Assembly (NCBI RefSeq): GCF_002930105.1
Contig: NZ_PJRN01000002.1
Coordinates: forward strand, 62,001-126,000
Source: Billgrantia saliphila
GTDB taxonomy: Bacteria > Pseudomonadota > Gammaproteobacteria > Pseudomonadales > Halomonadaceae
Length of the DNA: 64,000 bases
Direction: 5' to 3'
The number at the start of each line of letters is the position of its first letter. The stretch's first letter is position 1. The notes under the pieces are model-generated. The model saw nothing but the letters and a program-made list of their open reading frames with translations. It was not told the origin of the DNA and ran no database searches. The translations under genes were made by a program, and so were the position numbers. Of the stretch, positions 11,420-29,148 are shown one piece after another.

Positions 11420-11427
11420 GGGGTCGA

Positions 11428-11913: not shown

Positions 11914-11974
11914 GGCGTTGTCCTGATTGCCGGTGATGTCGGAAGTCTAACAGCCAAGGTCGCACCCTGCGCGC

Positions 11975-12445
11975 CTACGTCGGAAGCGACGCCGACGCAT
12001 CGAGTGGCTTGACCATCTGCCAGCCGGCGCAGCCGTCCTCATAGTAAGCCTCGAGCCAGCGCTCGAGGCGAAACCCCATGCGCCGATAGAGCCCCAGAGC
12101 GATGCGGTTGTCCGCACGCACCTCAAGCCCGAGCGCCTGAGCCCCGCGTGCCGCAGCCTGATGCTCCAGCGCCTCGAGCAAACGTCGGCCCAATCCGCTG
12201 CCACGCGCTTCGGGATGAATACAGAACGAGTAGAGCCGGGCGCGAACGCTGCCGCGACGAAACAGCAGGGTGCCATAGCCCAGCAGGCGTCCGTCGTTCT
12301 CTGCCACCCAGCTTTCGGCATGCGCCCGGTTGAGCAGGTGCCAGAGCTGGCGCCGAGTGAAGCGGTCGCCACTGAAAGCGACCAGTTCCAGGCGATAAAG
12401 CGCATCCAGGTCCTGGGGACGAGCCTGGCGCAATGTGACGGTCAT
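11975..12445 (-). CDS. GNAT-family N-acetyltransferase (RimI-like)
   Basis: A 156-residue GNAT domain. Motif A appears as FCIHPEARGSGLGRRLLEAL with the RGSGLG acetyl-CoA pyrophosphate loop, and LEVRADNRIALGLYRRMGF resembles RimI-type protein N-terminal acetyltransferases. The substrate is unknown. GGGAG precedes the ATG. It is divergent, 172 bases away, from a RimK-like ATP-grasp gene. GNATs and RimK-like ligases recur as neighbours, which suggests a shared peptide or protein modification pathway. This is inference. Confidence 0.86.
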   Translation of the reverse strand: MTVTLRQARPQDLDALYRLELVAFSGDRFTRRQLWHLLNRAHAESWVAENDGRLLGYGTLLFRRGSVRARLYSFCIHPEARGSGLGRRLLEALEHQAAARGAQALGLEVRADNRIALGLYRRMGFRLERWLEAYYEDGCAGWQMVKPLDASASLPT

Positions 12446-12509
12446 TCAGTCATCTCCCGAGAGGGACCAGTCAAAGGGGTATCACCGACAAGTCTGCCAG
12501 TCGGGACGA

Positions 12510-12522
12510 TGAAATCATTTCA
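12510..12522. promoter_or_regulatory. 13-bp dyad in divergent GNAT/RimK-like promoter region
   Basis: TGAAAT-C-ATTTCA is a perfect inverted repeat midway between the two divergent genes and is more AT-rich than its surroundings. It could be an operator serving both; no regulator is identified. Confidence 0.35.
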
Positions 12523-12617
12523 CCCGCCGTCACGCTTGTCGACCACGAGATGCGACGGCATGCTGGCGACATTCACCGGCGCTAGTGCCGCCCTCGCCAA
12601 CCGAATGGAATTCGCCC

Positions 12618-14120
12618 ATGTGTCCCTTGCGTATCGTTGTCGACCGACAGGAAGACTGGCAGCCCTACTACCCCTCCGAAGACCTGGTCAGCGCCGACGA
12701 TTTCCTTGCCCTGGATCGGCGTCACCGCGCCGCCGCCGATCAGGACCGCAGCACGCACGTGATCAATCTTTGCGGTGAGCTCGATTATCTTGGCACCGGC
12801 TATTACGTCTCGCTGCTCGCTCAGGCGCGCGGACAGCGCGTGTTGCCCTCGGTGGAAACGCTCAACGAGCTATCGCGCAAGGCCCTGGTCGACCTGCAAC
12901 TGGATTCGCTGGCACCGCTGCTGGGAGAACTGGCGCGTCGGGGCAAGCTCGCTGGTGACAGCGTGACCCTGCATGTGCTGTTCGGTGAATGCCGCGAGCC
13001 CGAGCTGGCGCGGCTCGCGCGCAAGCTTTTCGAGCGTCTTCCCTGTCCCCTGCTCGAGGCACGCCTGGTAAGACGCCACGATCTGTGGCGGCTGGCCCGG
13101 GTCAAACCGCTCACACTGCGTGACCTGAGCGCAGACGAGCAGGATCTCTTCGCCGTGGCGCTCAATCGCCACTCACGCAAGGTCTGGCGCACGCCGAAGG
13201 CGCGGCGCCGCTACCGCTTCGATCTGGCCATTCTGGTCGACCCCAAGGAGGCCATGCCGCCGAGCAACCGTAGCGCTCTAAAAGCCTTCATTCGCGCCGG
13301 CCGCAAACTGGGAATCGACGTTTCGCTGATCACCCGCCGCGACGCAGGCCGGCTCGCCGAATTCGATGGCCTGTTCATTCGCGAGACTACGGCGCTGGAT
13401 CACCATACCTACCGCATGGCACGACTCGCCGAGCATGAGGGGCTGGTGGTGATCGATGCTCCCCGCGACATCCTGCGCTGCACCAACAAGGTGTACTTGC
13501 ACGCGCTGCTGCGTGCCCGTGGCGTACCGGCGCCCGACGGCGTGCTGCTCAAGCGGCGCGACCGCCGACCGCTGGCCGAGCGAGTCGCCGGCCTGAGCTT
13601 TCCCATGGTGCTCAAGATCCCTGATGGCTCCTTCTCTCGCGGCGTGGTCAAGATCGAGTCGCTGGAACAGCTCGAGCGCGAGGCCAGACGCCTATTCGAG
13701 GATTCCGCCCTTCTGCTGCTGCAGGAGTGGCTACCCACCGAATACGACTGGCGCATCGGTGTGCTCGGCGGCCAGGTACTCTTCGCCAGCCGCTACTATA
13801 TGGCGCGGGGTCATTGGCAGATTTACGACCACTCGGGGGCGCGGGTGAAGAGCGGCGGCTTCACCACCCATGACCCGGCCGAGGTCCCGCCCGCCGTAAT
13901 CAAGGCCGCCCTCAAGGCCACCCGACTGATCGGAGACGGCCTCTATGGCGTTGACCTCAAGCAGGCCGGGGATCGCGTCGTGGTCATCGAAGTGAACGAC
14001 AACCCCAACGTGGATGCCGGTGTCGAGGATACCGTCCTGGGTCGCGCGCTTTATGAGCGCATCATGCGCGTCTTCCTCGCCCGGATGGAGATGCGCGTTC
14101 GCGCTCGAGCAAGTGAGTGA
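12618..14120 (+). CDS. RimK-like ATP-grasp ligase with N-terminal RLAN-type domain
   Basis: A 500-residue protein in two parts. The N-terminal third starts CPLRIVVDRQEDWQPYYPSE and matches the domain that precedes ATP-grasp in this RimK subfamily. The C-terminal ATP-grasp domain carries CTNKVYLHALLRARGVPAP, FPMVLKIPDGSFSRGVVKI, LLQEWLPTEYDWRIGV, and the metal/ATP motif VIEVNDNPNVDAG. Such enzymes form amide bonds between a carboxylate and an amine; the substrate of this subfamily is not established. The preferred ATG at 12618 gives the family N-terminus; an in-frame GTG lies at 12585. It is divergent from the GNAT gene. Confidence 0.85.
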   Translation: MCPLRIVVDRQEDWQPYYPSEDLVSADDFLALDRRHRAAADQDRSTHVINLCGELDYLGTGYYVSLLAQARGQRVLPSVETLNELSRKALVDLQLDSLAPLLGELARRGKLAGDSVTLHVLFGECREPELARLARKLFERLPCPLLEARLVRRHDLWRLARVKPLTLRDLSADEQDLFAVALNRHSRKVWRTPKARRRYRFDLAILVDPKEAMPPSNRSALKAFIRAGRKLGIDVSLITRRDAGRLAEFDGLFIRETTALDHHTYRMARLAEHEGLVVIDAPRDILRCTNKVYLHALLRARGVPAPDGVLLKRRDRRPLAERVAGLSFPMVLKIPDGSFSRGVVKIESLEQLEREARRLFEDSALLLLQEWLPTEYDWRIGVLGGQVLFASRYYMARGHWQIYDHSGARVKSGGFTTHDPAEVPPAVIKAALKATRLIGDGLYGVDLKQAGDRVVVIEVNDNPNVDAGVEDTVLGRALYERIMRVFLARMEMRVRARASE

Positions 14121-14180
14121 AGGTACGTCGCCAGACGGTAACACCGCCGCCTTACTCAAAAAAACAATTAACATCAATTA

Positions 14181-14203
14181 GTTACTTAGTCAGATAGAGT
14201 AAC
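14181..14203. promoter_or_regulatory. Candidate activator-binding dyad upstream of sigma-54 promoter
   Basis: GTTACT (14181-14186) and AGTAAC (14198-14203) form a perfect inverted repeat with an 11-base centre. It is 157 bases upstream of the -24 element, a usual distance for a sigma-54 enhancer-binding protein. The cognate protein is unknown. Confidence 0.4.
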
Positions 14204-14359
14204 CGTCGCCAATTGGAGACAGTGCAACCCCTTGATCTGCAAGCATACCTCGACTCAAGACTCAGCATGTCTGTTTTTGGCGACACATTTTAGCACACTG
14301 TTTCTTCATTTCCCTGCCTGGACTCTTGCAAGCCTTTGTTTCTAAGGTGGTTGGCTTAA

Positions 14360-14376
14360 TTGGCGCGGATGTTGCC
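14360..14376 (+). promoter_or_regulatory. Predicted sigma-54 (-24/-12) promoter of the polysaccharide operon
   Basis: TTGGCGCGGATGTTGCC compares with the consensus YTGGCACGrNNNTTGCW. It has invariant GG and GC exactly ten bases apart, and only two mismatches (A to G in the -24 box and the final W). Predicted transcription start is near 14387, about 112 bases before the ugd ATG. Confidence 0.68.
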
Positions 14377-14498
14377 TACCTTAAGACACGCAACAACACG
14401 CAATCTGGCCCTGAGCGTCATGTGACGCCGGTACAAACTCCGGCGCAATGGCGCCGTTTGGATGAATGGGGCCCAACCATCAAGGAGCGACGACGATC

Positions 14499-15845
14499 AT
14501 GAGGATTACCATCTTCGGTTCTGGCTATGTGGGTCTTGTAACCGGTGCCTGCCTGGCCGACGTCGGCCACGACGTCATGTGTGTCGATGTGGACGAGCAG
14601 AAAGTGGCTCGCCTCAACGCCGGTGAAGTCCCCATCTACGAGCCCGGTCTCGAGGACCTGATCAGCAATAACATGGCCGCCGGACGTATCCGCTTTACCA
14701 CCGATGCCGCCGAGGCGGTGAAATTCGGCCTGCTCCAGTTCATCGCCGTCGGTACGCCCTCCGACCAGGATGGCAGCGCGGACCTCAAGTACGTGCTGAA
14801 GGTCGCCGAGACCATCGGTGCACACATGGACGAGTACAAGATCATCGTCGACAAGTCGACCGTGCCGGTAGGTACCGCCAGCAAGGTCGAGCGGACCGTG
14901 GCCGCCGAGCTGGAAAAGCGCGGCCTGAACCACGAGTTCGATGTTTGCTCCAACCCCGAATTCCTCAAGGAGGGGGCGGCGATCGAGGACTTTTCGCGCG
15001 GTTCGCGCATTATCGTCGGGACCGATTCGGAGCGCGTGAAGAAGGCGATGCTGGAGTGCTACGGACCGTACAACCGTCAGCGCGACAAGATGATGTTCAT
15101 GGGCGTGCGCAGCGCCGAGCTGACCAAGTATGCGGCCAATGCCATGCTGGCGACCAAGATCAGCTTCATCAACGAGATCGCCAACCTGGCCGAGCGTCTC
15201 GGCGCAGACGTCGAGGAGGTTCGCCACGGCATCGGCTCCGACCCACGTATCGGCTACAGCTTCATCTACCCGGGCTGCGGCTACGGCGGCTCCTGCTTTC
15301 CCAAGGACGTCAAGGCACTGGCGCACACTGCCGAGGAAATCGGTCATCCGGCCGAAATGATCAAGGCCGTTGAGCGGGTCAACGCCCGACAGAAGAACAA
15401 GCTGTTCGAGAAGCTCTGCCAAGCCTTCGACGGTCAGCTCGCCGGCAAGACCATCGCCCTTTGGGGCCTGGCGTTCAAACCCAACACCGACGATATGCGC
15501 GAAGCACCCAGCCGCGCCCTGATGGAAGCCCTGTGGGATGCGGGCGCCCACGTTCAGGCATACGATCCCGAGGCTACCGAGGAGTGTCGTCGTATCTACG
15601 GCGAGCGTGACGATCTAGTGCTGGCCGATCGCCGGGACGACGCTCTGGAAGGCGCGCATGCACTGGTCATCTGCACCGAATGGAAGGCCTTCCGCACCAT
15701 CGACTTTCCCAAGCTGCGCGAGACGCTCGCGGAGCCGGTGGTCGTCGATGGGCGCAATCTCTATTCGCCCGAGACCGTCAAGGCTGCCGGGCTTGCCTAT
15801 TACGGTATCGGCCGGGGCGATTCCGTGCGGCCTGTGCTGGCCTGA
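14499..15845 (+). CDS. UDP-glucose 6-dehydrogenase
   Basis: The enzyme oxidises UDP-glucose to UDP-glucuronate with two NAD+. The 448-residue protein begins [19 protein letters not shown] (Rossmann fold). It has the [14 protein letters not shown] signature and the catalytic-cysteine loop [16 protein letters not shown]. These motifs match UDP-glucose rather than GDP-mannose dehydrogenases; AlgD has a different N-terminus and a shorter NPEFLRE-type continuation. AAGGAG lies 11 bases before ATG 14499. It is the first gene of the polysaccharide operon, nine bases before the synthase gene, so the polymer precursor is probably UDP-glucuronate. Confidence 0.93.
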
Positions 15846-15854
15846 GGTGTCGAC

Positions 15855-17783
15855 ATGACCCCCACTCCCCGAAACCATTCGACCGCCAGTCGAGTCACGG
15901 AGCTGACCACGTTCCTGTTCGGCATGGCGCTGTTGGTGGTGATTCTCAGCGAGTTGCCCTCGGAAGTGTTCTCGCCGGAGTCGGAGAGTTTCATCTTCGT
16001 CATTGGCGGGATCGCCATCTGGCGCTACTCCTGGTGGGCCATCCAGGCCGTGCGTTCGGTCTGGTACAACCGGGTCGTCTTTCCCAAGCTGCGGGCCGAA
16101 GCGGATGCCGTCGGTGAGCTGGAGCGGCCACCGGAGCTGTTCGTGCTCTGCACCTCGTTTCGTATCGAGGCGCAGGTGAACTTCCAAGTCTACGATGCGC
16201 TGATCCGCGAGGCTCGCGACTACGGTGTGCCGACGACGATCTTCGCCTCGGTATCGGACCGCACCGACGTCGACGTCATCACTCACGTGATGGACGACCA
16301 TGACTGGCCGTCCAACGTCGAGGTGCGCTACATGTTCCAGAAGGGGGACGGTAAGCGTTCGGCCATGGCTGAAGTGCTGCGTGCGATCTCCCGGCGCCTA
16401 CCGGCGCCGGGGTCGCTGCTGATCTCGATGGACGGCGACATTCGTCTCGAGCCGGGTACGCTCTCGCGCTCGCTCTCCTTCTTCGTGTCGCAGGATGACC
16501 TGGGCGCGCTGACCACCAACAACCAGGCCGTCGTCACCGGCAACGACGCCACCCGTGAGTGGTACGACCTGCGCTATGCCCAGCGCCACCTGATGATGAG
16601 TTCGATGTCGCTGTCCCGGCGACTGCTGGTGCTGACCGGTCGCTATAGCGTATTCCGCGCCGATCTGGCGACCCAGCCGGACTTCATCGAACTGATCGAG
16701 AGCGACCATGTCCACCACTGGCGATTCGGCAACTTCAAGTTCCTCTCCGGCGATGACAAGTCGTCCTGGTTCTGGCTGCTGAAGAATGGCTGGCGCATGA
16801 TCTACATACCGGACGTCTTCGTGACGGGCTTCGAGGAGTTGCCCGACAGGCGCCGCTTCTTTGCCTCGACCACCGATCTGATGCGGCGCTGGTACGGCAA
16901 CATGCTGCGTACCAGCAACCGAGCGATCGCCCTGGGACCGCGCCCGATGGGCATCTTCACCTGGTGGAGCCTGATCGATCAGCGTCTCTCCATGTGGACG
17001 ACCCTCGTGGGCCCAACGGTGGTCACGCTGGTCACGCTGTTCGTGAGGCCCTCGTTCTTCTTCGCCTACGTGCTGTGGATTCTGTTCACCCGCGGCATCG
17101 CCACCTTGATCCTGGCCTGGCAGCGCGGACGCTACAGCATGCTGTGGATACCGCTGATCTACTACAACCAGGTCTGGGGCGCGATTCTCAAGACTTATGT
17201 CAGCTTCCGCTTCAATCGGCAGAAGTGGTCGCGCCAAGGCATCTCGGCGGGAGAACCCGATGACCCGGTGGCGGCGCGCCGTCAGCGTCGCATGGGGCAC
17301 GTGCTGCACGGCTTCGTCTACGGCGTGATGCTGTTCGCGTTGATGCTCGGCACTGGCGTGCTGCAGCCGCCGGACCGCGCCTCGCTGCACATCGCTCTCG
17401 ATCAGGGCTGGGAGCGCAACCACGAGCCCGAACGGCTGGATCGCTGGCTCGCTGCCCTGCTCGTCGACAACCACGGAGAGACCGTTCATCTGCCCACCGG
17501 GTACTTCCAGCTCGAAGGCTCGCTTCTCGATGCCATCGAGCAGGGCTCACTCTCCGACACCCGGCGCATCAGCGGAACGGCCGAAGCCACCACCCTCGCG
17601 GTCTCCCCCGCCGTGGCGGAGAGGCTGCTGGGGCCGGACGGCGAACCCCTCCAGGGCGACGTCCAGTGCACCACGCAGGCCAATTGCCGGATGACTCTCA
17701 ACGAACACGACCTGACTCTCGTCAACGTACGACTCAGGGTCGAACCTGTCGCCGCTGCAGAGGTGGCGACAGCGGGACCTTGA
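15855..17783 (+). CDS. Alg8-like processive glycosyltransferase (GT2) with C-terminal extension
   Basis: A 642-residue inner-membrane synthase. There are two N-terminal helices (about residues 16-34 and 46-64), then a cytoplasmic GT2 domain with DGD at 193-195, GDDKSSWFWLLKNG at 299-312 and RRWYGNMLRTSNRA at 344-356, then C-terminal helices ending near residue 503. These motifs align with Alg8 of the alginate synthase, which runs about 494 residues. The extra 139 residues after the last helix would be periplasmic; their stretch HLPTGYFQLEGSLL resembles the start of a beta-helix. With UDP-glucuronate supplied by the preceding gene, a glucuronate polymer is the likely product (inference). Confidence 0.86.
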   Translation: MTPTPRNHSTASRVTELTTFLFGMALLVVILSELPSEVFSPESESFIFVIGGIAIWRYSWWAIQAVRSVWYNRVVFPKLRAEADAVGELERPPELFVLCTSFRIEAQVNFQVYDALIREARDYGVPTTIFASVSDRTDVDVITHVMDDHDWPSNVEVRYMFQKGDGKRSAMAEVLRAISRRLPAPGSLLISMDGDIRLEPGTLSRSLSFFVSQDDLGALTTNNQAVVTGNDATREWYDLRYAQRHLMMSSMSLSRRLLVLTGRYSVFRADLATQPDFIELIESDHVHHWRFGNFKFLSGDDKSSWFWLLKNGWRMIYIPDVFVTGFEELPDRRRFFASTTDLMRRWYGNMLRTSNRAIALGPRPMGIFTWWSLIDQRLSMWTTLVGPTVVTLVTLFVRPSFFFAYVLWILFTRGIATLILAWQRGRYSMLWIPLIYYNQVWGAILKTYVSFRFNRQKWSRQGISAGEPDDPVAARRQRRMGHVLHGFVYGVMLFALMLGTGVLQPPDRASLHIALDQGWERNHEPERLDRWLAALLVDNHGETVHLPTGYFQLEGSLLDAIEQGSLSDTRRISGTAEATTLAVSPAVAERLLGPDGEPLQGDVQCTTQANCRMTLNEHDLTLVNVRLRVEPVAAAEVATAGP

Positions 17784-17802
17784 CGCAAGGAGCGACCTAC
17801 GG

Positions 17803-19368
17803 ATGGCTGATCACTTTTCCAACGATGACCCCAAGCGGCACGAGCCAACGCTCGGAGGGAACCGAGCCAGGGGAACCGAACAAGGGCACGCCGAGTCCGG
17901 CAGCCCCAATCACGACGCCACTCGCCTGAGCAAAGGTGACCGGCTGCAGCATGAACGGCGCGACGAGCGGGGCTATATCCGCGTCACGCTGCCGTTCCGT
18001 GTAGCGCTCGATGATAGGGACGAGACGACCCTCGCTGGACACGATGTCTCGCTCGGCGGCTTCTCGGCTCACAGCGAACACCATTTCGAGCCCGGCGACA
18101 AAATCTCGGCCTCGCTGCTGATGATGGCAGGCGCCACCGAGCTGATCGTGCCGCTGCGCGCCGAGTGCCTGCGCTCGACCGCCTCGGCGGCGGGCCAGGG
18201 ATACGACATCAGCTTCGAGATCGTGGAGATCGAGCCTCAGCATCGCGAGCTATTGCGTCAGATCATACGCAGTGCGCTCAGCGGCCGTTCGCCCAATATC
18301 GAAGGCTTGATGGCGGGGGAGGATCCGCAGACGCCGCGCAAGCGAAAGGCGACCAAACCGCAGCCACCCGCACGGCCGCCGAAGCCGATGGGCCGTTACA
18401 TACTGCTCTTCGTCGCCATCGGCGTGCTGGTGCTGGTGGGCGCGGCCACGGCCTACCGCAACTTCATGCTGATCGAGCCCAGCTTCGCCGCCGTCACGGC
18501 GCCGCGTATCGACATTCGCGCCCCTGGGCCGGGCCTGCTGGGTGAGCATGATCTGACCGCCGGCGACCGGGTCGAGCGCGACCAGCTCCTGACCAAAGTC
18601 GTCAACAGCGACCTGGAGTCGGACCTGATCCTTGCCGAGGCGGCGCTGGATTACAACGAGCGGTTGATCGAGAACCTGCGCGAAAATATCGAAGGCGGCG
18701 CGCAGCGAGTCAGCCTGGCCAATTCAGCGCAGCCGGCCAGCGGTGACACCATGACCTTCGAGTCGGTGTCGCCCGAGATAGCCCAGGCGCGTATCGATCA
18801 GTTCGAGACGGTGCGGGACTATGAAAGCTCCCGTATCGCCGCCCTCGAGGCGCGCATGGCGAGCAACGATATCTACAGCCCCTGCGACTGCCTGGTGGCC
18901 TGGGCCCTGAGCAGCGCCGACGGGGTCTATATCAACGAGAGCGAGCGGATCATGACCCTGATCCGAACCGATGAGGATGACGTACTGGTCGAGGCGCTGG
19001 TTCACATGAGCGACATCAGCCGCATCGAGCCCAACCAGCAGGCCTACGTGACCCTGGCCAACTCCTCCCAGCCGATCCGCGCCCGGGTCCGCAACGTCGC
19101 TCTCGACGTCGAACGCCAGCCCCGCGCCGGCTTCCCGAGCTGGGTTCGCCAACAGCAAAACGTCGCAAGCGTGCTGCTCGTGCCCGAAGACCCTCTGCCC
19201 GCCGACAGCGTCGGTCAGCCCGTGGACGTGCGCTTCACCGAGGCTCCCCTGCTCGGCGCCGCTTCGGAGCGGATCTGGCAGGGGGTACGTACCGTGATTC
19301 AATTCGGCGACGACATCTATCGCGCTGCGATTCAGGAGGATGACGATGAAAATGCCGATGAAGGCTAA
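17803..19368 (+). CDS. Alg44-like PilZ / HlyD-type co-polymerase
   Basis: A 521-residue protein with the Alg44 layout. A PilZ domain has the c-di-GMP motifs RxxxR (Arg56, Arg60 in RGYIR) and DxSxxG (Asp81, Ser83, Gly86). A basic linker and one membrane helix (about 195-220) follow, then a periplasmic HlyD-like part with a helical hairpin (about 270-350) and beta-rich lipoyl-like segments. All c-di-GMP-contacting motif residues are intact, so the synthase should be activated by c-di-GMP. AAGGAG precedes the ATG. The end of the gene overlaps the next coding region by 23 bases, suggesting coupled translation. Confidence 0.87.
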   Translation: MADHFSNDDPKRHEPTLGGNRARGTEQGHAESGSPNHDATRLSKGDRLQHERRDERGYIRVTLPFRVALDDRDETTLAGHDVSLGGFSAHSEHHFEPGDKISASLLMMAGATELIVPLRAECLRSTASAAGQGYDISFEIVEIEPQHRELLRQIIRSALSGRSPNIEGLMAGEDPQTPRKRKATKPQPPARPPKPMGRYILLFVAIGVLVLVGAATAYRNFMLIEPSFAAVTAPRIDIRAPGPGLLGEHDLTAGDRVERDQLLTKVVNSDLESDLILAEAALDYNERLIENLRENIEGGAQRVSLANSAQPASGDTMTFESVSPEIAQARIDQFETVRDYESSRIAALEARMASNDIYSPCDCLVAWALSSADGVYINESERIMTLIRTDEDDVLVEALVHMSDISRIEPNQQAYVTLANSSQPIRARVRNVALDVERQPRAGFPSWVRQQQNVASVLLVPEDPLPADSVGQPVDVRFTEAPLLGAASERIWQGVRTVIQFGDDIYRAAIQEDDDENADEG

Positions 19369-20227
19369 CGCAATCCAATCAGTACTGCTGAGCGGGGCCG
19401 CCGTCGGACTGGCGGCTCTGTCCACGACGACGCTGGCCGACGAGGCAGAGGATGCGGTCGTTGCCATTCCGCAAGAGGAAGCCTGCTCGCAGCGTTATAC
19501 GCTGGCCGAATCGCCGCGTCCGCGGCAGGCCGCCAACGGCCATGCGGCGGTCCGCGAAGGCTTCCACACCAAGCGTCACTGGGGCACCGAGGAGAACGTC
19601 GAACGCCTGGGTGCCGAGCACACCGAGATCGACGAACCCGGGCTACGCGTGCACTACCCCGCCGGCACTTCCTCGCCCGGCGAGGAGCCCCTTGGCGGGG
19701 CAGGCTTCTATAGCGATCCCCCCTCGCTGAAGGGGGCCGAGCAAGCGTGCCTGAGCTACATGGTGCGTTTCCCGGCGAATTTCGACTTCGTCAAGGGTGG
19801 CAAATTACCGGGGCTGTATGGCGGTGAAGCCCCGTCTGGAGGAGAGGATGTCAACGGCAAGAATGGGTTTTCCATGCGCCTGATGTGGCGCGAGGAGGGA
19901 GAGGGTGAGCTCTATCCCTATGTGGTCGGCTTCGAGGGCGAGTCGGTGGGACGCGGCTTCTGGCGTTTTCCTCTCGGCCAGTGGGTTACCGTCGAGCAGG
20001 AAGTGATACTCAACGATCCCGGCCAGGAGAATGGCATCGCCCGGCTATGGGTCGATGGGCGCCCGGTGCTGGAACAACAGAATATCGTCTATCGTACCTC
20101 GCCCTCGGTCACCATCGATGGACTGATGTTTTCCACTTTCTTCGGCGGCACCGGCGAAGGCTGGCGAACACCGCGAGACCAGTATGTGGATTTCGCTGCC
20201 TTCCGCTTCTATGTTCCCAGCACCTGA
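19346..20227 (+). CDS. Polysaccharide lyase, PL14-like (first copy)
   Basis: A 293-residue protein with a signal peptide (cleavage near residue 31). It carries the PL14 motifs KGGKLPGLYGG (150-160), FSMRLMWRE (175-183) and ELYPYVVG (188-195). Lys153, Ser176, Arg178, Tyr190 and Tyr192 correspond to catalytic or binding residues described for Chlorella virus lyase vAL-1, which cleaves glucuronate-containing polymers by beta-elimination. Three in-frame ATGs cluster at the start; 19346 has AGGAGG six bases upstream and is preferred over 19340. It would act in the periplasm to trim or clear polymer. A second copy lies at 24251. Confidence 0.82.
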   Translation: MKMPMKANAIQSVLLSGAAVGLAALSTTTLADEAEDAVVAIPQEEACSQRYTLAESPRPRQAANGHAAVREGFHTKRHWGTEENVERLGAEHTEIDEPGLRVHYPAGTSSPGEEPLGGAGFYSDPPSLKGAEQACLSYMVRFPANFDFVKGGKLPGLYGGEAPSGGEDVNGKNGFSMRLMWREEGEGELYPYVVGFEGESVGRGFWRFPLGQWVTVEQEVILNDPGQENGIARLWVDGRPVLEQQNIVYRTSPSVTIDGLMFSTFFGGTGEGWRTPRDQYVDFAAFRFYVPST

Positions 20228-20263
20228 CGATACCTCTCGAGCGCCGACGGAGTGACGCCGATC

Positions 20264-21511
20264 ATGCCCCTTGCCCTTTTCAAAGGACGCTTTTCCCATT
20301 GCCTGGCAGGCTTCGTGACGCTGGCGCTCGTTGCGCCATGGAGCAGCGCCGACAGCACGGAGCTGCTTTCCCGCGACGAGCGGATGGAGCTGGACCTGTC
20401 CGAGTACAGGGTCACCGACCCCGATGCCAGCTATTTCGATGTCGAGGCGCGCATGGAATTGCTGCGTGAAACCGACAATGCCGTTCTTCTTCAGGAAATT
20501 GACGAGCGCACGCTGGGGCCCAGTTGCCAGCAGCTACTCAATCAGGAGCCGCTCACCACCCGCGGCGCAATCCCCGGCTACTACCCCAGTCCCGAGGAGT
20601 GGGAACTCGCCAGTGAACCGCTGTTCGCCTTCGAGGATAGCGTCTCGGGGCTTGCCGGCGCCTTCGTCGCCAGCGGCGACGTGTTCTATGCCGAGTGCCT
20701 GGTGCGATACCTGCATCGCTGGGCCGAGGCCAAGGCGTTGACCACCTTCGTATTCGATTCGAACGATCCCCAAGCCTGGTTCGCTTCGGAATCGATGCTG
20801 TTCGCCGCGGCCATGGCCTACTCCATCGTGCGTCCCTATATCGATGGCATGGAGGGAGAGCGCAAGGAGATCGAGCAGTGGATGCATGGGCTCGCCCTGC
20901 AGCACTCGGCGTTCCCGGGCCAGCCCGAGGAGAGCTGTTGCAACAACCACTTCTATCGCCGAGCGCTCTACGCCAGCATGATCGGCGTGCTCGTCGAGGA
21001 CGACGAGCTGTTTCGCTTCGGTGTCAGCGCGATCTATTCCGCGCTGCACGACATGACCGAAGAGGGAGCCCTGCCGCTCGAGGTAAGCCGTGGTCGCCGC
21101 GCAACGCACTACCAGAACTATGCGCTCATTTACCTGATCACCAATATGCAGATCATCCATCGCCAGGGCTATGACATCTTCGACTTGGAGTACCAGGGCA
21201 ATACGATCCACGACGGGGTCGATTTCCTCTTCGAGATCCTCGACAACCCGGCCGCTCTTGGCGACTACGCCCCGCTCGAGCAATACACGGGCTTTCTCAA
21301 GGATCCGCAGTACTTTACCTGGATGGACATCTACCTCTCGCACTTCGATCACCCGCGTGTGAGTGATTTCGTGAAACGCGTGCGGCCCCTGTACAACCGC
21401 AGCGCGGGAGGATTCATCACACTGTACTTCATGGATCCCGATGCTCAGGAGCACGTCTATCTGGATGAGGAACGCCGACGCAGCGAGGCCTTCCGCGGCC
21501 TGGGCGAGTGA
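20264..21511 (+). CDS. AlgL-like (PL5-related) lyase, first copy
   Basis: A 415-residue secreted protein (signal peptide to about residue 29) with an alpha-helical alginate-lyase fold. ECLVRYLHRWAEAKAL and NNHFYR (Asn227, Asn228, His229) match AlgL. Arg279 and Tyr286 keep the seven-residue spacing of the AlgL catalytic Arg and Tyr. The Trp that follows NNHSY in AlgL is Arg232 here, so substrate choice is probably changed. It would clear polymer in the periplasm, as AlgL does for alginate. ATG 20264 is chosen; GTG at 20252 is possible. A second copy lies at 25197. Confidence 0.84.
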   Translation: MPLALFKGRFSHCLAGFVTLALVAPWSSADSTELLSRDERMELDLSEYRVTDPDASYFDVEARMELLRETDNAVLLQEIDERTLGPSCQQLLNQEPLTTRGAIPGYYPSPEEWELASEPLFAFEDSVSGLAGAFVASGDVFYAECLVRYLHRWAEAKALTTFVFDSNDPQAWFASESMLFAAAMAYSIVRPYIDGMEGERKEIEQWMHGLALQHSAFPGQPEESCCNNHFYRRALYASMIGVLVEDDELFRFGVSAIYSALHDMTEEGALPLEVSRGRRATHYQNYALIYLITNMQIIHRQGYDIFDLEYQGNTIHDGVDFLFEILDNPAALGDYAPLEQYTGFLKDPQYFTWMDIYLSHFDHPRVSDFVKRVRPLYNRSAGGFITLYFMDPDAQEHVYLDEERRRSEAFRGLGE

Positions 21512-21547
21512 GAGTTGACACACCACGACATAGCTAGAGGGGAACAC

Positions 21548-24187
21548 ATGGAAAGGACGACGAATTGGACTCGACCCACCCCAACGCTGCGGCCAGCCGC
21601 AGCGTTAGTTCTGGCTGCCTGGCTCTCCGGCTGTGCCGCGACCGGTGGACCCTCCTCTGGCGACCACGCCCCGCCCGTCCCGGCGGAGTATGCAGCCTGG
21701 TTCGGTGGCGTGGTCGAGGCCCGCATCGACGGGAATGATTGGGACGCCATCAATTACAGTCGAACGCTAATCGAGCAAGGCCGACACGAGGAAGCGATCG
21801 ATCGCCTCGAGGCGCTCATGACGCGCAACATACCGCCCGCGTTCTACGAGATGGGCAAGCTTTACGAGCGCGGCGAAGTGGTAGAGGAGGATCCTGCCAA
21901 AGCCGCTCAGTATTATGGAAAAGCGCTGGAGCGGCCCTCTTCGGTTCGCGGCAACGTTTCACTGAATCTCGCCCGGCTCTATCAGGAAGGCCGAGGGGTC
22001 GAGCGCAACGACGTGCTGGCCTACCACCTGCTGCGACAGGCAGTCGACGCCAACCTCGGCCGTGATGCCGAGGTGCGCCTCGGCATGCTGCTGGCCGAAG
22101 GTGGCGAAGGCGTGGAAGCCGACCCCGAGCTTGCCAAGCACCTTCTCGAACGCGCTGCCGAACAAGGCAACGCAAAAGCCCTGCAGGCGCTGGCCGAGGC
22201 CCACTCCGCCGGCGGCTGGCTGGAGGAACAACCGGCCGAGGCCATGGATTACGCCCAGCGCTACGCAGAGGCCCTCGAGACACAGGCCAACCGGGGCGAT
22301 ACCGGGGCCATGCTCCAACTGGCCTCCCTTTACTCGGAGGATGGCCTGCTCGGCGACCAGCCGGACCAACGCATTCATTGGCTGCGCCAGGCCGCCGAAG
22401 CCGGCGATCTCGACGCTCTGGCCAGGGTCGGTCGGGAAATGGTTGCCGCCGGTGAGCATAGCCAGGGTATGGAGCTGCTTGAGGAGGCCGCCAGCCAAGG
22501 ACATGTCGACGCCATGGCCTACTACGGCGAGGCCCTGCTTTCCCCCGAAGGCGGCAGGCCGGAGCCGGTTCGCGCCGAACGTTGGCTGAGAGAAGCCATC
22601 GACAGAGGCTCGCTCGATGCTCAGGTCATCCTGGGGCGGGCCCTGGTGGAAGGCCAGGGCGGGCTCAACGACCTGCCACGAGGCATGAACCTTCTGGAAC
22701 AGGCCGCCGAGCAGGACCATCCATTGGCCCTGGCCCAACTGGGCGCCCTCTATCTCGACGACGAGCGCGTCGCCGGTCAACCCTATATTGCCGTCGATTA
22801 TCTCGAGCGCGGCCATCAGCTCGGCCATCCCTGGGCCACCCAGCAGCTCGGTGCGGCCTATCTCGAAGGGCGCGGTGTCGCGCCGGAGCCCAGCCGCGCC
22901 GAGGAATTGCTGAGCGAAGCCGCCGCACGCGGCCAGGCGGGCGCCATGCGTCTCCTGGGTGAAGCCTACCTGTCGGGCGAAGCCCTGGAGTTCCATCCCA
23001 GTCGCGGCGAGGAACTGCTGCGTCAGGCGGCCGAGGCCGGCGATACGACGGCCATGACCCAGCTCGGCGAGGCCTACCTGGAAGGACCGCTCGACGACCC
23101 GTCGCAGGGTGTCGATCTGCTGACCCAGGCGGCCCAGCAGGGCGACGCCTATGCCATGGTCGTACTGGGTCGCGCCTATCGAAAAGGCAATGGCGTCGAG
23201 CGCGATCTGGACGAAGCCACCCGCTGGCTGACTCGCGCCCAGGAGGCCGGACACGAGTCGGCCGACGACGCCCTCACCTACGTCCAGCGCGACCTGGGGG
23301 CCCAAGGCGATATCGACGCCTTGGTGTCAGCCGCAGAGGACGGACACCCGGGCGCCATGGCCGATCTTGGCCGCGCCTTTCTCGATGGACAGGGTGTCGA
23401 GCGCGATGCGGCCCGGGGCGAACGCTGGCTGGAACGCGCCCACGAGGCAGGCCATGCCGGCGCCGCAGCCAGCCTCGGAAGAATGCACATGGACCGTGGA
23501 AGCCACCAGCGCGGCATCGAATATCTGGAAGCCGCCGTGGCCAGAGGGCACGCGGGGGCTCGGGCCGACCTGGGCGAGGCCTATCTGACCGGTAATCACG
23601 TCGAGCGCGATGTGGAGCGGGGCCTGGAGCTGGTAACCGCCGCCGCCGAGGCGGGATCGCCGCACGCCGCCTTTACGCTGGCCGAACTCTACCAGGAAGG
23701 TGACGGGGTCGAGCCGGATGCCGAGCAGGCGGAACGCTGGTATCGTCAAGCCATAAGCAGCGGCGCTCGCTACGCTAAAGCCGGCCTGGGCAGGGCATTG
23801 CTCAGGGGCGAAGGTGCCGTCGCCCAGGACGTCGACGAAGGTCTTCAGCTGTTGCAGGAGGCTGCCGACCAGGGCGATCCCGGCGCTCAGGCGACCTTGG
23901 GACGCGAATACCTGCGTGGCGAGATTCTCGAGCGCGATCCTGAGAAAGGGGCGGATTATCTCTACGAATCCGCCAGCCAGGGGCACGCCAGTGCCCGTCT
24001 CGCCCTGGCCGAAGCCTATCTTTCTGCCCGTGGCCTGGAGCGGGCCAACCAGGAGCAGGCTCTGCTATGGCTGGACGAGGTTTTCGAGAGTGAAGGTCAG
24101 TTGGCCGTCGAAACCCTGCGCCAGTTGCTGACGGATGAGGCGGCAGTAGCCGCGGCGAGCGACGTAGAAGTGGCCGAGGACGAGTGA
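21548..24187 (+). CDS. AlgK-like Sel1-repeat outer-membrane lipoprotein
   Basis: An 879-residue protein with a lipoprotein signal (lipobox LSGC near residue 33). Roughly twenty Sel1/TPR-like repeats of about 36 residues follow, with recurring AAEQGN / LGEAYLEG / GVERD patterns, and an acidic tail. Alginate AlgK is a shorter lipoprotein of the same repeat type that scaffolds the periplasm and localises the porin AlgE. Position inside the operon supports the same role here, but the protein is nearly twice as long. AGAGGGG precedes the ATG. A terminator-like hairpin follows directly, before the second lyase pair. Confidence 0.83.
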   Translation: MERTTNWTRPTPTLRPAAALVLAAWLSGCAATGGPSSGDHAPPVPAEYAAWFGGVVEARIDGNDWDAINYSRTLIEQGRHEEAIDRLEALMTRNIPPAFYEMGKLYERGEVVEEDPAKAAQYYGKALERPSSVRGNVSLNLARLYQEGRGVERNDVLAYHLLRQAVDANLGRDAEVRLGMLLAEGGEGVEADPELAKHLLERAAEQGNAKALQALAEAHSAGGWLEEQPAEAMDYAQRYAEALETQANRGDTGAMLQLASLYSEDGLLGDQPDQRIHWLRQAAEAGDLDALARVGREMVAAGEHSQGMELLEEAASQGHVDAMAYYGEALLSPEGGRPEPVRAERWLREAIDRGSLDAQVILGRALVEGQGGLNDLPRGMNLLEQAAEQDHPLALAQLGALYLDDERVAGQPYIAVDYLERGHQLGHPWATQQLGAAYLEGRGVAPEPSRAEELLSEAAARGQAGAMRLLGEAYLSGEALEFHPSRGEELLRQAAEAGDTTAMTQLGEAYLEGPLDDPSQGVDLLTQAAQQGDAYAMVVLGRAYRKGNGVERDLDEATRWLTRAQEAGHESADDALTYVQRDLGAQGDIDALVSAAEDGHPGAMADLGRAFLDGQGVERDAARGERWLERAHEAGHAGAAASLGRMHMDRGSHQRGIEYLEAAVARGHAGARADLGEAYLTGNHVERDVERGLELVTAAAEAGSPHAAFTLAELYQEGDGVEPDAEQAERWYRQAISSGARYAKAGLGRALLRGEGAVAQDVDEGLQLLQEAADQGDPGAQATLGREYLRGEILERDPEKGADYLYESASQGHASARLALAEAYLSARGLERANQEQALLWLDEVFESEGQLAVETLRQLLTDEAAVAAASDVEVAEDE

Positions 24188-24193
24188 GGCCAC

Positions 24194-24226
24194 GACCTGG
24201 CCCGTAAACGGGCCAGGTCATTTCTT
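24194..24226 (+). terminator. Intra-cluster terminator after the AlgK-like gene
   Basis: A perfect 11-bp stem GACCTGGCCCG / CGGGCCAGGTC with a TAAA loop is followed by ATTTCTT. It lies between the AlgK-like gene and the second lyase pair and would reduce or uncouple expression of the downstream pair. Confidence 0.75.
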
Positions 24227-24250
24227 CTCCCATTCAGGCTGCAGGAATCG

Positions 24251-25147
24251 ATGATGACATTAGTTTTGCACGCTCGGCTGACGTTTGCCGGTGGCGTGGC
24301 ATTGGCATGCCTGAGCGGTATGCCGAGCCCTGTCAGCGCAAAGGATGACCCCAGTGCGCTCTCCACACCTCGTTTGGCTCCCTGTTCCGAGCGCTACCCC
24401 GTGGTCGCCCAGCTACGCCCTCTTCGCTGGGATCAGACGGCCAAGCAATCCATACGCGAGGATTTCACTTCGACCCGCGACTGGGGGACCGAGAATAACA
24501 CCTCGTTACTTCCCGCCATGACCAGTGGCCTGCCCGAGCCTGCCCTGCGGGTGCATTACCCTGCCGGCAGCTCTTCTCCCAGCGATGCCGATCAGGAAGG
24601 GGTCCCACGCGGAGGGGCCGGATTCTATACCGAGCACGCCGACTTGCAATACACCGACCGGGCATGTCTACACTATCTGTTACGGTTCGATACGAATTTT
24701 GACTTCGTCAAGGGAGGTAAGCTTCCCGGGCTCTATGGCGGCGAGGCGCCCAGCGGTGGCGAAAAGGTCACCGGTGAGAACGGTTTTTCCATGCGCCTGA
24801 TGTGGCGCGAGGATGGCCAGGGCGAACTCTATCCCTACGTGGTCGGCCACGAAGGGGATTCCATCGGACGCGGTGCGTGGTATTTCCCCACGGGCCGCTG
24901 GATCAGCGTTGAACAGGAACTGATCCTCAATACGCCCGGGAAGGAGGATGGGTTGGTCCGTCTATGGATCGATGGCTGGCCGATCCTCGAGCGCCGGGAT
25001 CTCGTCTACCGCACCCAGTCGGATGTGGGCATAGACGGCCTGATGTTCTCCACCTTCTTCGGCGGCACCGGCGAGAAGTGGCGAACGCCTCGCGATCAGC
25101 ATGTCGATTTCGCCGCCTTTCGCCTTCACGCACCCAAGCGAAGATAG
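24251..25147 (+). CDS. Polysaccharide lyase, PL14-like (second copy)
   Basis: A 298-residue paralogue of the protein at 19346. It has a signal peptide to about residue 30 and then the same motifs KGGKLPGLYGGEAPSGGE, FSMRLMWRE, ELYPYVVG and TFFGGTGEKWRTPRDQ. All residues assigned to PL14 catalysis are kept, so both copies should be active. The C-terminal two thirds are very similar, while the signal region and residues 30-100 have diverged. AGGA lies four bases before ATG 24251 and seven before ATG 24254, so either may be used. The gene is followed within 50 bases by the second AlgL-like gene. Confidence 0.82.
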   Translation: MMTLVLHARLTFAGGVALACLSGMPSPVSAKDDPSALSTPRLAPCSERYPVVAQLRPLRWDQTAKQSIREDFTSTRDWGTENNTSLLPAMTSGLPEPALRVHYPAGSSSPSDADQEGVPRGGAGFYTEHADLQYTDRACLHYLLRFDTNFDFVKGGKLPGLYGGEAPSGGEKVTGENGFSMRLMWREDGQGELYPYVVGHEGDSIGRGAWYFPTGRWISVEQELILNTPGKEDGLVRLWIDGWPILERRDLVYRTQSDVGIDGLMFSTFFGGTGEKWRTPRDQHVDFAAFRLHAPKRR

Positions 25148-25196
25148 CGGCTGTTCTACCAGCCGCGGCGTTATCGATGCAGGAGGCTGGTACGCT

Positions 25197-26450
25197 ATGA
25201 CACTTCGTCTACAGGACGTTCAGACCATAACCGCTCGCCGCATGGCGGCTCCCATCACCATCATGGCCCTGTTGGCCTATGCCGTGCCCTCGGCATTCGC
25301 CATGTCGCTCGAAGAGCGCAAGGACCTCGATCTCTCCGAGTACGAGGTCACCCATCCAGAGGCCTCCTACTTCGAGGTCGACGAGCGCATGGCACTGCTG
25401 CAGGAGACGGACAATAGTCTCCTTCTCCAGCACCGCAATGAACTCGCCAAGCACGCTCCGAGCTGTCAGCAGCGGCTCGAGCTTCCCCCCATCACCGATA
25501 AGATGCGCATCCCGGGCTTCTATCCCACCCCGGACGATTGGCGGCTCGCCACCGAGCCGCTATTTGCCTTTGAGGATACAGTTACCGAATTGGCTGGTGC
25601 TTATGTGGCCAGCAGCGATGATTACTACGCTGAGTGCCTGGTACAGTTCCTCGATCAGTGGGCTGGCGAGGATGCCCTGCTGGACTTTCACTATCATTGG
25701 TCGGACCCGCAGGCGTGGTTCTCGCTGGAATCGATGATCTTCGCTGCCGCCATGGCGTATTCGGTGGTCGAACCCGGGATAGAAGGGATGCGGGAAGAGC
25801 GAGATCGCGTCGAATCCTGGCTCAATGAGCTCGCCAGCGTGCACATGGAGATCGAAGGGGCCGACAGCAGCTGCTGCAACAACCACTTCTATCGGCGCGC
25901 ACTTTACGCGACCATGGTGGGCGTGCTGACCGAGGACGACAAGATGTTTCGCTTCGGCGTGAGCGCTATCCATTCCGCGCTGCACGACATGACCGAGGAA
26001 GGGGCTTTCCCCTTGGAGATGCAGCGTGGCCGGCGCGCGACGCACTACCAGAATTATGCCCTGCTCTATCTCATTCCCATCATTGAGATCGCATCCCGCC
26101 AAGGCTACGACATCTACGATCTGGAGGTCGGTGGCAGCACCATCCACGATGCGGTCGATTTCACCATGGAAATCCTCGAGAACCCCGCGCAGCTCGGCGA
26201 CCTAGCTCCGCGCGATCAGTACACTGGCTTTCTCAAGGACGACCAATACTTCGCCTGGATGGAAATGTACCGCAAACGCTTCGATGACGATCGCTTCGAC
26301 GATCTCCTGGCACCAATGCGACCCATTTACAATCGCAGCGCCGGCGGTTATGCAACGCTCTACTTCATGGAACCCGAAGTGCAAACGCATATCGTACCCG
26401 ACGAGGAAGAGCGTCAATCCCGTGCTCTCAAGGGGCTCGCCGATCAATGA
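25197..26450 (+). CDS. AlgL-like (PL5-related) lyase, second copy
   Basis: A 417-residue paralogue of the lyase at 20264. It keeps NNHFYRRALYATM and the Arg-x6-Tyr pattern in RRATHYQNYALLYL, and likewise has Arg where AlgL has Trp after NNHSY. AGGAGG ten bases upstream supports ATG 25197; the hydrophobic signal core is about residues 16-31, ending at SAFA. An internal ATG at 25242 is less well supported. The last gene of the cluster, it is followed by a bidirectional terminator facing purA. The tandem order PL14 then AlgL-like repeats that of the first pair. Confidence 0.83.
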   Translation: MTLRLQDVQTITARRMAAPITIMALLAYAVPSAFAMSLEERKDLDLSEYEVTHPEASYFEVDERMALLQETDNSLLLQHRNELAKHAPSCQQRLELPPITDKMRIPGFYPTPDDWRLATEPLFAFEDTVTELAGAYVASSDDYYAECLVQFLDQWAGEDALLDFHYHWSDPQAWFSLESMIFAAAMAYSVVEPGIEGMREERDRVESWLNELASVHMEIEGADSSCCNNHFYRRALYATMVGVLTEDDKMFRFGVSAIHSALHDMTEEGAFPLEMQRGRRATHYQNYALLYLIPIIEIASRQGYDIYDLEVGGSTIHDAVDFTMEILENPAQLGDLAPRDQYTGFLKDDQYFAWMEMYRKRFDDDRFDDLLAPMRPIYNRSAGGYATLYFMEPEVQTHIVPDEEERQSRALKGLADQ

Positions 26451-26505
26451 CGACCGTCACGACGCATGCCCTCCGAGACAGTAACGAGTGGCAGCGCCTG
26501 GCAAC

Positions 26506-26531
26506 GAAGAGGCCGGCTAGCCGGCCTCTTC
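26506..26531. terminator. Bidirectional terminator between lyase cluster and purA
   Basis: A perfect palindrome with 11-bp arms (GAAGAGGCCGG / CCGGCCTCTTC) around CTAG lies between convergent transcription units and can serve both strands. Confidence 0.82.
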
Positions 26532-26549
26532 ACCCCTGCAAAGCGCGCG

Positions 26550-27863
<1,314 letters not shown>

Positions 27864-27972
27864 TCAGCGCCGCGTACGTGCGCGTCGATGATCCGGCCCG
27901 CGGGCCGCGCTCGGAAACCGGCGCGCGTCGCCGGTGCCGTCCAGTTGTGGCATCCGTCGCTCGAGCGGATGC

Positions 27973-29148
27973 CTAGAGGGCCACCGTCTGCCAGCGGCCG
28001 TCGTCGTGCACCAGCCGCCGGCTGCAACGATGCGCCTCGGGGGGCGTCGACTGTCCGGGCAGTGCCTGTACCACCCGGTGTCCGCCCGCACGCAGCGCAG
28101 CGATCGCCTCGGCCACGCCTTCGCCCTCGGCGGGCGCCCAGATACCGTCGCAAGCCGGCTCGCTCTGCACCAGGGTGGCCAGCTGCTTCAGGTCCATCGA
28201 GAAGCCCGTGGCCGGTCGCGCCCGGCCGAAGGCGCGGCCGGTATCGTCATAGCGCCCGCCCTTGGCCAACGCCTGACCGTAGCCCGGCACGAAGGCGGCG
28301 AACATCATCCCGGTGTGATACTGGTAGCCACGCAGTTCGGCCAGATCGAAGTACAGATCCACCTCGGGATGCTCACGCTGCACGCCGCGATGCAGCGAAC
28401 TCAGCTGCGCCAGTGCTTCCCCGACTGCCGCCGGCGCGCCGTCGAAGACGCTGCGCGCCGTCTCCAGCACATCGGCATCGCCATGCAGCCGCCCCAGCGC
28501 CATGAACATCTCCGCCAGGGCGGGGTCTGCAACGCTTGCCTCGACCTGAGCCGCCAGCGCCCCGGGCGACTTCAACTCAAGCGCCTCGAACAGCGCGCGC
28601 TCCTGGTCGGGGTTCAGCGCGGCCGCCTGCACCAGGCTACGGTAGATGCCGATGTGTCCCAGCGCCAGGTGCACCTCGTCGGCACCGGCCACCTTGAGGC
28701 TCGTCAGCGCCAGGTGCAGGATCTCGAGATCGGCTTCCAGCCCGGCATGGCCGAACAGCTCGACTCCCACCTGCACCGGACTGCGCCCTCCCTGATGCTG
28801 GTCGGCCTTGGCACGCAGAACATTGGTGCAGTAGCACAGCCTGGCCGGCCCCTGATGGCGCATCGAGTGGGCGTCCATGCGCGCCACCTGAGGTGTTACG
28901 TCGGCGCTGACCCCCATGAGGCGGCCGGTGAGCTGGTCGGTGAGCTTGAAGGTCTGCAGCTCGAGGTCGGTACCGGTACCGGTCAGCAGCGAGTCGAGGA
29001 ACTCCACCGGCGGCGGCATCACCTGGTCGTATCCCCAGCGATAATAGAGGTCGAGCAGTGCCCGGCGCAGCTCTTCCATACGGCTCGCCTGAGGCGGCAG
29101 CACCTCGTCCATGCCGTCGGGCAATAGCCAGCGGTCAGCAATGGTCAT
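27973..29148 (-). CDS. hisZ: ATP phosphoribosyltransferase regulatory subunit
   Basis: HisZ is a catalytically dead histidyl-tRNA-synthetase-like protein that assembles with short-form HisG and gives histidine feedback control. The 391-residue protein begins MTIADRWLLPDGMDEVLPPQA and contains the class II-like DVTPQVARMDA segment. The frame is open to 29211, but ATG 29148 with AGGA upstream matches the family start. It lies between hflC and purA, its usual place. The DUF2065 gene often found between hflC and hisZ is missing. Confidence 0.95.
   Translation of the reverse strand: MTIADRWLLPDGMDEVLPPQASRMEELRRALLDLYYRWGYDQVMPPPVEFLDSLLTGTGTDLELQTFKLTDQLTGRLMGVSADVTPQVARMDAHSMRHQGPARLCYCTNVLRAKADQHQGGRSPVQVGVELFGHAGLEADLEILHLALTSLKVAGADEVHLALGHIGIYRSLVQAAALNPDQERALFEALELKSPGALAAQVEASVADPALAEMFMALGRLHGDADVLETARSVFDGAPAAVGEALAQLSSLHRGVQREHPEVDLYFDLAELRGYQYHTGMMFAAFVPGYGQALAKGGRYDDTGRAFGRARPATGFSMDLKQLATLVQSEPACDGIWAPAEGEGVAEAIAALRAGGHRVVQALPGQSTPPEAHRCSRRLVHDDGRWQTVAL

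Follow-up and report, generated by a model that had tools for sequence, protein, structure and literature searches.

The stretch analysed here (the window) comprises 64,000 nucleotides of Billgrantia saliphila (Halomonadaceae), positions 62,001 to 126,000 of contig NZ_PJRN01000002.1, and sits within a 364-kb contig of a 4.3-Mb genome. It contains a cluster of eight genes, all on the + strand, spanning positions 14499-26450 (Table 1). The cluster joins a core of the alginate type, namely a family 2 glycosyltransferase (GT2) synthase of the Alg8 family and an Alg44-like PilZ protein, to a UDP-glucose dehydrogenase (Ugd), an AlgK-like protein and two pairs of polysaccharide lyases (families PL14 and PL5), and is a candidate for the biosynthesis of a glucuronan-like polymer. 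Among named relatives, Billgrantia pellis L5 has the closest synthase (96% identity).

Table 1. Genes of the cluster and the evidence for their assignment (positions in the window).
Gene product	Position	Strand	Evidence
Ugd, UDP-glucose 6-dehydrogenase	14499..15845	+	three UDPG_MGDP_dh domains (Pfam/NCBIfam), PDB sequence search
Alg8-family GT2 synthase, 642 aa	15855..17783	+	PF13641 (Glyco_tranf_2_3), identity to Alg8, tree
Alg44-like protein, PilZ then HlyD/membrane-fusion part	17803..19368	+	PF07238, PF13437 (HlyD_3), RxxxR and DxSxxG
First PL14 lyase; N-terminus signal-peptide-like by eye	19340..20227	+	PF21294 (214 bits), PDB relatives
First PL5 (alginate-lyase family) lyase	20252..21511	+	PF05426, NNH and HYQNY motifs
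AlgK-like Sel1 protein, 890 aa; N-terminus lipobox-like by eye	21515..24187	+	PF08238 (252 bits)
Second PL14 lyase	24251..25147	+	PF21294
Second PL5 lyase	25101..26450 (longest open reading frame; start probably further in)	+	PF05426, motifs

A preliminary description, made from the letters alone, had listed an Alg8-like GT2 with an Alg44-like PilZ protein, an AlgK-like scaffold and AlgL-like lyases, and the genes for all of these are present. Compared with the alginate proteins of Pseudomonas donghuensis, the synthase is 41.7% identical to Alg8 over 446 residues and the PL5 lyases are 23-24% identical to AlgL; the Alg44-like protein shows 22% identity to Alg44. The Sel1 protein is 24-33% identical to AlgK in pieces, and scored 115 bits with the NCBIfam model for AlgK, the cut-off of which is 700. 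The PL14 copies are 56% identical to each other, and the PL5 copies 62%. The open reading frame (ORF) of Ugd is readable from 14466; 14499 is the better start, with a purine-rich stretch ahead of it.

In a sequence search of the PDB, the cluster dehydrogenase scored 562 bits with the UDP-glucose dehydrogenase 2y0e and 212 bits with the GDP-mannose dehydrogenase 1mfz, in agreement with its earlier naming as a Ugd. The genome encodes four dehydrogenases of this family over the Pfam cut-off, plus two weak matches below it. Three of the four lie outside the window; in NCBIfam scans of their N-terminal domains only, one resembles Ugd, one resembles WecC and one falls in the TviB/WecC group. The protein of the genome that is most like AlgD is a Ugd (39% identity). 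As a second Ugd, 64.5% identical to the cluster copy, is encoded elsewhere in the genome, the cluster copy is suggested to serve the cluster.

A separate algD-like gene, which the preliminary description had named as a finding that would speak against it, was looked for in 25 synthase-bearing genomes (the window's own, 18 of the same genus and six named ones) and was found in none. The best match reached 235 bits at 40% identity, whereas the three alginate-type control genomes were all positive, with 377, 553 and 981 bits (the highest value is the self-match of the query). The same-genus genomes bearing the synthase numbered 21 with the window's own, and G024 and G034 were left out of this search. 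AlgG was likewise not found in any of the six synthase-bearing genomes tested, both alginate-type controls being positive (one is the query's own genome). The models for AlgE (PF13372) and AlgX (PF16822) gave no match in the window's own genome or in B. pellis; in P. donghuensis there were three matches for AlgE (two over the cut-off) and four for AlgX. Neither model matched in Rhizobium mesoamericanum, and hence both miss some alginate-type systems. The earlier claim that AlgD, AlgG, AlgX, AlgE and acetylation genes are lacking therefore extends beyond the window, as tested, for AlgD and AlgG, is to be taken with this reserve for AlgX and AlgE, and for AlgI concerns the interior of the loci described below, to which that search was confined.

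When named genomes were scanned with patterns from ten synthases, at least 591 stretches coding for relatives were obtained. The best 80 were kept, giving 78 loci, and these were searched with the eight window proteins and with nine from the alginate operon of P. donghuensis. Classified by dehydrogenase, 35 loci were of the Ugd type, 27 of the AlgD type, and 16 had no match in the stretch examined. The Ugd-type loci (34 from Halomonadaceae and one from Caenispirillum salinarum) gave 372-866 bits for Ugd and 181-236 bits for AlgD, and ugd was located within 450 bases upstream of the synthase gene in all but one, where it was downstream. Every one of them carried PL14, an Alg44-like protein and a PL5 nearer to the window PL5 than to AlgL; a Sel1 protein was present in 34, the stretch of the remaining locus (L044) ending before this gene. 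AlgG, AlgX, AlgE and AlgI were found in none of the 35. In contrast, PL14 was found in none of the 27 AlgD-type loci, the set AlgG/X/E/I was matched in 26 of them, and their PL5 was nearer to AlgL in 20 and nearer to the window's, weakly (up to 68 bits), in four. Because the same set recurs in 35 further loci of public genomes, it is not a chance assembly. No conserved unassigned gene was found inside the cluster among 23 loci compared, seven of which were inspected in detail.

A quick maximum-likelihood tree was built from 72 synthases; it is unrooted, carries Shimodaira-Hasegawa-like approximate likelihood ratio (SH-aLRT) support only, has several long branches flagged, and is without seven Pseudomonas loci that were missed in ORF matching. 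One set (support 100) contains 20 AlgD-linked and 3 AlgG-linked rows, and the other (support 97) contains 36 Ugd-linked rows, two cut rows and four minimal PL5 rows. A dehydrogenase is present in 56 rows, across which its type switches once, and the Ugd-linked synthases form a separate branch of the same tree as Alg8. The word 'rewired' of the preliminary description is a weak point, as an unrooted tree does not give the direction of that change.

Six positions set the Ugd-linked synthases apart from the AlgD-linked ones. In window synthase numbering, F161, Q162, D165, S169, N223 and L329 occur in 36 of 36 Ugd-linked rows (FQDSNL in 22 of 22 same-genus loci). The AlgD-linked synthases have R161, I162, D169, E223 and P329 in 20 of 20 rows and T165 in 19, and the three AlgG-linked rows all have the residues of the AlgD-linked set. 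Positions 161-169 flank an invariant G-x-G-K-R motif and position 223 follows a TT motif. Judging from other GT2 synthases, these positions presumably line the donor site. At the level of sequence the six positions are correlated with the type of dehydrogenase, which does not imply that they set the donor. Together, the linkage of ugd, its single change on the tree, the donor-loop residues and the failure to find AlgD in any of the 25 genomes tested argue for an Alg8/Alg44-type system tied to UDP-glucuronate and not to GDP-mannuronate, as had been proposed.

The PilZ motifs for cyclic di-GMP (c-di-GMP) are kept. Of the 36 rows of the Ugd group, 34 were recovered; both arginines of RxxxR were present in all 34, and the D, S and G of DxSxxG in 33, 33 and 34 rows, respectively. 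An excerpt of PMC8461298 states that c-di-GMP binds Alg44 via RxxxR and is presumed to act on Alg8. Given this precedent and the retention of the motifs, the synthase of the cluster would also be under c-di-GMP control.

Both PL5 copies of the window carry the NNH and HYQNY motifs, and among relatives NNH was found in 45 of 45 rows and H[YF]QNY in 43 of 45. The nearest solved structures are A1-III (1hv6, 149 bits), 7fhu (95 bits), which we take to be Smlt1473, and 4ozv (49 bits), presumably the AlgL of P. aeruginosa. The PL5 lyase Smlt1473 cuts hyaluronate, poly-glucuronate, poly-mannuronate and poly-guluronate depending on pH (PMC8511899, in excerpt).

The first PL14 lyase scored 107 bits with AkAly30 (5gmt) and 35 bits with vAL-1. 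The second also scored 107 bits with AkAly30, and vAL-1 was not among the matches listed for it. GGKLPG and MWR motifs are shared with AkAly30. The number EC 4.2.2.14 denotes glucuronan lyase. In the excerpted part of PMC8618178, vAL-1 is entered under EC 4.2.2.14, and the Cys115-Cys124 disulfide of AkAly30 is said to support specificity for polymannuronate (polyM). No counterpart of this disulfide was found in any of the 35 readable PL14 rows, both window copies included (44 rows were aligned, nine of them unreadable at this loop; the two cysteines were placed in the 5gmt alignment by their nine-residue spacing, the numbering being offset). In all 35 rows the loop has 14 residues and no cysteine, compared with 18 residues in 5gmt. 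The earlier argument from vAL-1 is thus weakened, as both PL14 proteins score far higher with AkAly30, though they are without its polyM disulfide. The kinship of the lyases is compatible with poly-glucuronate but is no proof of it.

On these sequence comparisons, we consider it fairly probable that the product of the cluster is a glucuronan-like polymer, with beta-1,4-linked poly-D-glucuronate as the likeliest form. Ugd would convert UDP-glucose to UDP-glucuronate, which the Alg8-family GT2 would polymerise while threading the chain across the inner membrane. Binding of c-di-GMP to the PilZ domain of the Alg44-like partner would turn the synthase on. The AlgK-like lipoprotein may be a scaffold for passage of the chain across the periplasm, where the PL5 and PL14 lyases would clear or trim stray chains, like AlgL in alginate biosynthesis.

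A sequence search of the PDB gave no significant relative for the synthase. Its AlphaFold model has a predicted local distance difference test (pLDDT) score of 87.5, and the best structural match of the model is hyaluronan synthase, at 12-14% identity. This resemblance would accord with a heteropolymer containing glucuronate, made by alternating UDP-glucuronate with a second UDP-sugar in the manner of hyaluronan synthase and cut by the lyases at the uronate. Such a product would also accord with the action of Smlt1473 on hyaluronate, and the second UDP-sugar would need no gene in the cluster. However, Alg8, which makes a homopolymer, matches the same structures even better, and the cluster has no conserved gene for a second sugar nucleotide. 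Moreover, PL5 and PL14 lyases are mainly known to act on 1,4-linked polyuronates. We therefore hold a heteropolymer to be unlikely, although it survives better than the explanations that follow. Because Alg8 gives the better match to hyaluronan synthase, the fold was rejected as evidence for UDP-glucuronate as the donor.

It is very unlikely, in our estimate, that the synthase uses UDP-glucose or another neutral donor while Ugd serves another pathway, e.g. that of lipopolysaccharide or capsule. Ugd does have many cellular uses, and no dehydrogenase is linked to the synthase in the four minimal relatives (L068-L070 and L081) that group with the Ugd side of the tree. Yet a second Ugd is present in the genome, ugd heads the cluster in 34 of 35 loci, and two uronate lyase families are linked to the synthase in all 35.

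Marginally less credible still is an unusual alginate system, in which polymannuronate would be made from GDP-mannuronate supplied from elsewhere. The synthase is of the Alg8 family, the nearest solved lyases are alginate lyases, and 'atypical alginate operons' without export or modification genes are reported in PMC7112194 (in excerpt). Against this stand the failure to find AlgD in any of the 25 synthase-bearing genomes tested, the presence of Ugd within the cluster in 35 loci, a synthase without the donor-loop residues of AlgD-linked synthases, and PL14 proteins without the polyM disulfide. Filing the cluster as an alginate system fails on AlgD, AlgE, AlgG and AlgX. The least probable explanation of all, that an epimerase turns UDP-glucuronate into UDP-galacturonate or a different uronate before polymerisation, draws on the further sugar-nucleotide dehydrogenases found on contig 46 of the genome, but no epimerase is conserved in the cluster (elsewhere in the genome none was searched for) and we know of no action of PL5 or PL14 on polygalacturonate.

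Several observations weigh against poly-glucuronate as the product. Both PL14 lyases are closer to the alginate lyase AkAly30 than to vAL-1, and lyase kinship taken alone leans towards alginate-type enzymes. The fold of the synthase does not tell its donor. No outer-membrane porin was found when AlgE and the conservation of the cluster were looked at (barrels other than AlgE elsewhere in the genome were not searched for), which leaves the word 'secretion' of the preliminary description a weak part of its claim. The known glucuronan producers are rhizobia, whose Alg8-type loci found here are of the AlgD type. Finally, a 2020 survey (PMC7112194, in excerpt) reports the atypical operons mentioned above from deep-sea bacteria in which export (algKE) or modification (algGXLIJF) genes have been lost. 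The survey reads these operons as alginate, and a term search of its main text gave no mention of Halomonas, AlgD or lyase.

The window's family was sampled with 201 genomes from 24 genera, and 69 of these, belonging to 11 genera, have the synthase (E under 1e-30, lowest listed identity 57%; the synthase alone was counted, not its neighbourhood). Downstream of the cluster lie minus-strand genes, including hflC and hflK (Band_7 and HflK_N domains) and two that we read as purA and hisZ from their sequences; the conserved ORFs beside the cluster are presumably housekeeping genes. The purA-like ORF has homologues in 16-18 of 22 other loci compared. It lies downstream on the opposite strand in five of seven loci inspected (in L052 it was taken as part of a longer ORF), is not found in Caenispirillum, and is out of reach in L056, where the stretch ends inside the cluster. 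As this neighbour is kept, the cluster occupies an old chromosomal site in Halomonadaceae. In the alphaproteobacterium Caenispirillum salinarum (L061, 9989-20561), ugd is found behind the PilZ gene and the synthase is nested among those of Halomonadaceae on the tree, which suggests horizontal transfer.

The 16 loci without a dehydrogenase match are of several kinds. Three are truncated: L059 and L066, which fall on the Ugd side, and L073, a long-branch row placed next to the alginate set. Three more (L079, L080 and L105) carry AlgG. In the halomonad L066 (Halomonas saccharevitans, 9887-12422) the synthase is divergent (57%), the 10 kb upstream gave no dehydrogenase match and the contig ends soon after. 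In Alphaproteobacteria, L068 (4532-9009), L069 (9830-13975), L070 (403-4516) and L081 (9878-13982) are trios of synthase, Alg44-like protein and PL5 of the window type. Their PilZ c-di-GMP motif is degraded, no dehydrogenase match was found in the stretch examined, and their synthases have F161, Q162, N223 and L329 in 4 of 4. In Microvirga and Pararoseomonas (L086, 7999-12297; L102, 7833-12117), a PilZ-like protein (a weak match in L086), an Alg8-family synthase and PL14 adjoin, with no PL5 match. Four Vibrionaceae loci (L088, 8295-11401; L090, 8310-11401; L091, 8385-11500; L098, 8250-11431) have an Alg44-like protein (weak match) followed by an Alg8-family synthase of about 40% identity, with no lyase or dehydrogenase match. 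The synthases of these last two groups have Q162 and N223 in 6 of 6 and a different residue at 161.

In a wider search of the class, the synthase was found in 10 of 369 genomes, the window's own included, giving nine distant relatives of 37-43% identity. Two of these (L118 and L119) have alginate-synthase-like residues and, at the margin of the stretch, incomplete AlgD matches. The seven others together with L027 gave no AlgD match in their short flanks; among these eight, Q162 occurs in seven and E223 in all, and L121 has a weak AlgG match (80 bits). I162 is thus a good marker of AlgD-linked synthases, whereas E223 is shared with others. L120-L126 and L027 appear as a divergent lineage of Alg8-like synthases, with L124-L126 in open frames of 882-896 residues.

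We suggest, with less confidence than for the product itself, that this is the first recognised bacterial glucuronan cluster and that alginate belongs as a single branch to a wider and perhaps older Alg8/Alg44-type family. Its other branches (Ugd-PL14-PL5 in Halomonadaceae, the synthase-Alg44-PL5 trios of Alphaproteobacteria, PilZ-synthase-PL14 in Microvirga and Pararoseomonas, and PilZ-synthase in Vibrionaceae) would use UDP-sugars, a few donor-loop residues marking the switch. The synthase lineage of Halomonadaceae is a directly testable candidate for the missing glucuronan genes. Sister synthases tied to GDP-mannuronate and to UDP-glucuronate, differing at a handful of positions, could show how membrane synthases choose their sugar. 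If our reading of the product is true, 'alginate' as an annotation of such clusters is wrong about the product.

Some further features of the locus may be recorded. The synthase has a C-terminal extension of about 130 residues from about residue 510 (window 17385-17783). It is predicted to be of mixed alpha/beta structure and is probably periplasmic, is missing in the Litchfieldella and Franzmannia synthases, and gave no Pfam match in the window's copy or in those of two relatives. Where the window has its second PL14-PL5 pair, B. pellis has only a short PL5 match (L035, 18473-18589; 58 bits). The gene immediately before the cluster (12585-14120) has the same orientation and is of the RLAN/RimK ATP-grasp type; its B. 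pellis counterpart has homologues in 5 of 22 other loci compared. A promoter scan of 14000-14600 found none (0.3 expected), and an Rfam scan of 12000-28600 gave no match.

No description of this cluster or of a Halomonas counterpart was found in the open-licence literature, nor any open-licence paper in which glucuronan biosynthesis and an Alg8 synthase are mentioned together; an account behind a subscription or in preprint form may exist. The preliminary description likewise knew of no account of such a system. What lessens the novelty is the nearest prior observation, namely the atypical alginate operons of PMC7112194 (in excerpt). The rhizobial glucuronan of S. meliloti M5N1CS and Peteryoungia rosettiformans, a beta-1,4-glucuronan, is the polymer proposed here, and according to an excerpt of PMC10180729 (2023) the genes of glucuronan biosynthesis are unknown. 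The rhizobial loci were considered as a glucuronan cluster and rejected, since the Rhizobium loci L084, L085 and L087 carry an AlgD-type dehydrogenase and AlgG. A tblastn search of plasmids gave 14 records of 38.7-42.3% identity, none from Sinorhizobium (no search by name was made of S. meliloti or Peteryoungia chromosomes).

The membrane GT2 fold modelled for the window synthase resembles that of hyaluronan synthase, which uses UDP-glucuronate and to our knowledge has no PilZ partner; Alg8 matches hyaluronan synthase as well. The window lyases share the PL14 domain with vAL-1 and AkAly30, the specificity disulfide of the latter being absent, and share the PL5 family and the NNH and HYQNY motifs with A1-III, Smlt1473 and AlgL, A1-III being the nearest solved. 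The closest parallel is the Pseudomonas alginate system (algD-8-44-KEGXLIJFA). The cluster itself differs from it in having Ugd instead of AlgD, an extra PL14 and other donor-loop residues, and in having no AlgE, AlgG, AlgX or AlgI. Both systems have an Alg8-family GT2, an Alg44-like PilZ and membrane-fusion protein, an AlgK-like Sel1 protein and a PL5 lyase, and both start in the same order of dehydrogenase, synthase and PilZ protein. By analogy, then, the cluster would work like the alginate system, with a synthase of the same family, the same kind of c-di-GMP partner, a scaffold and a lyase.

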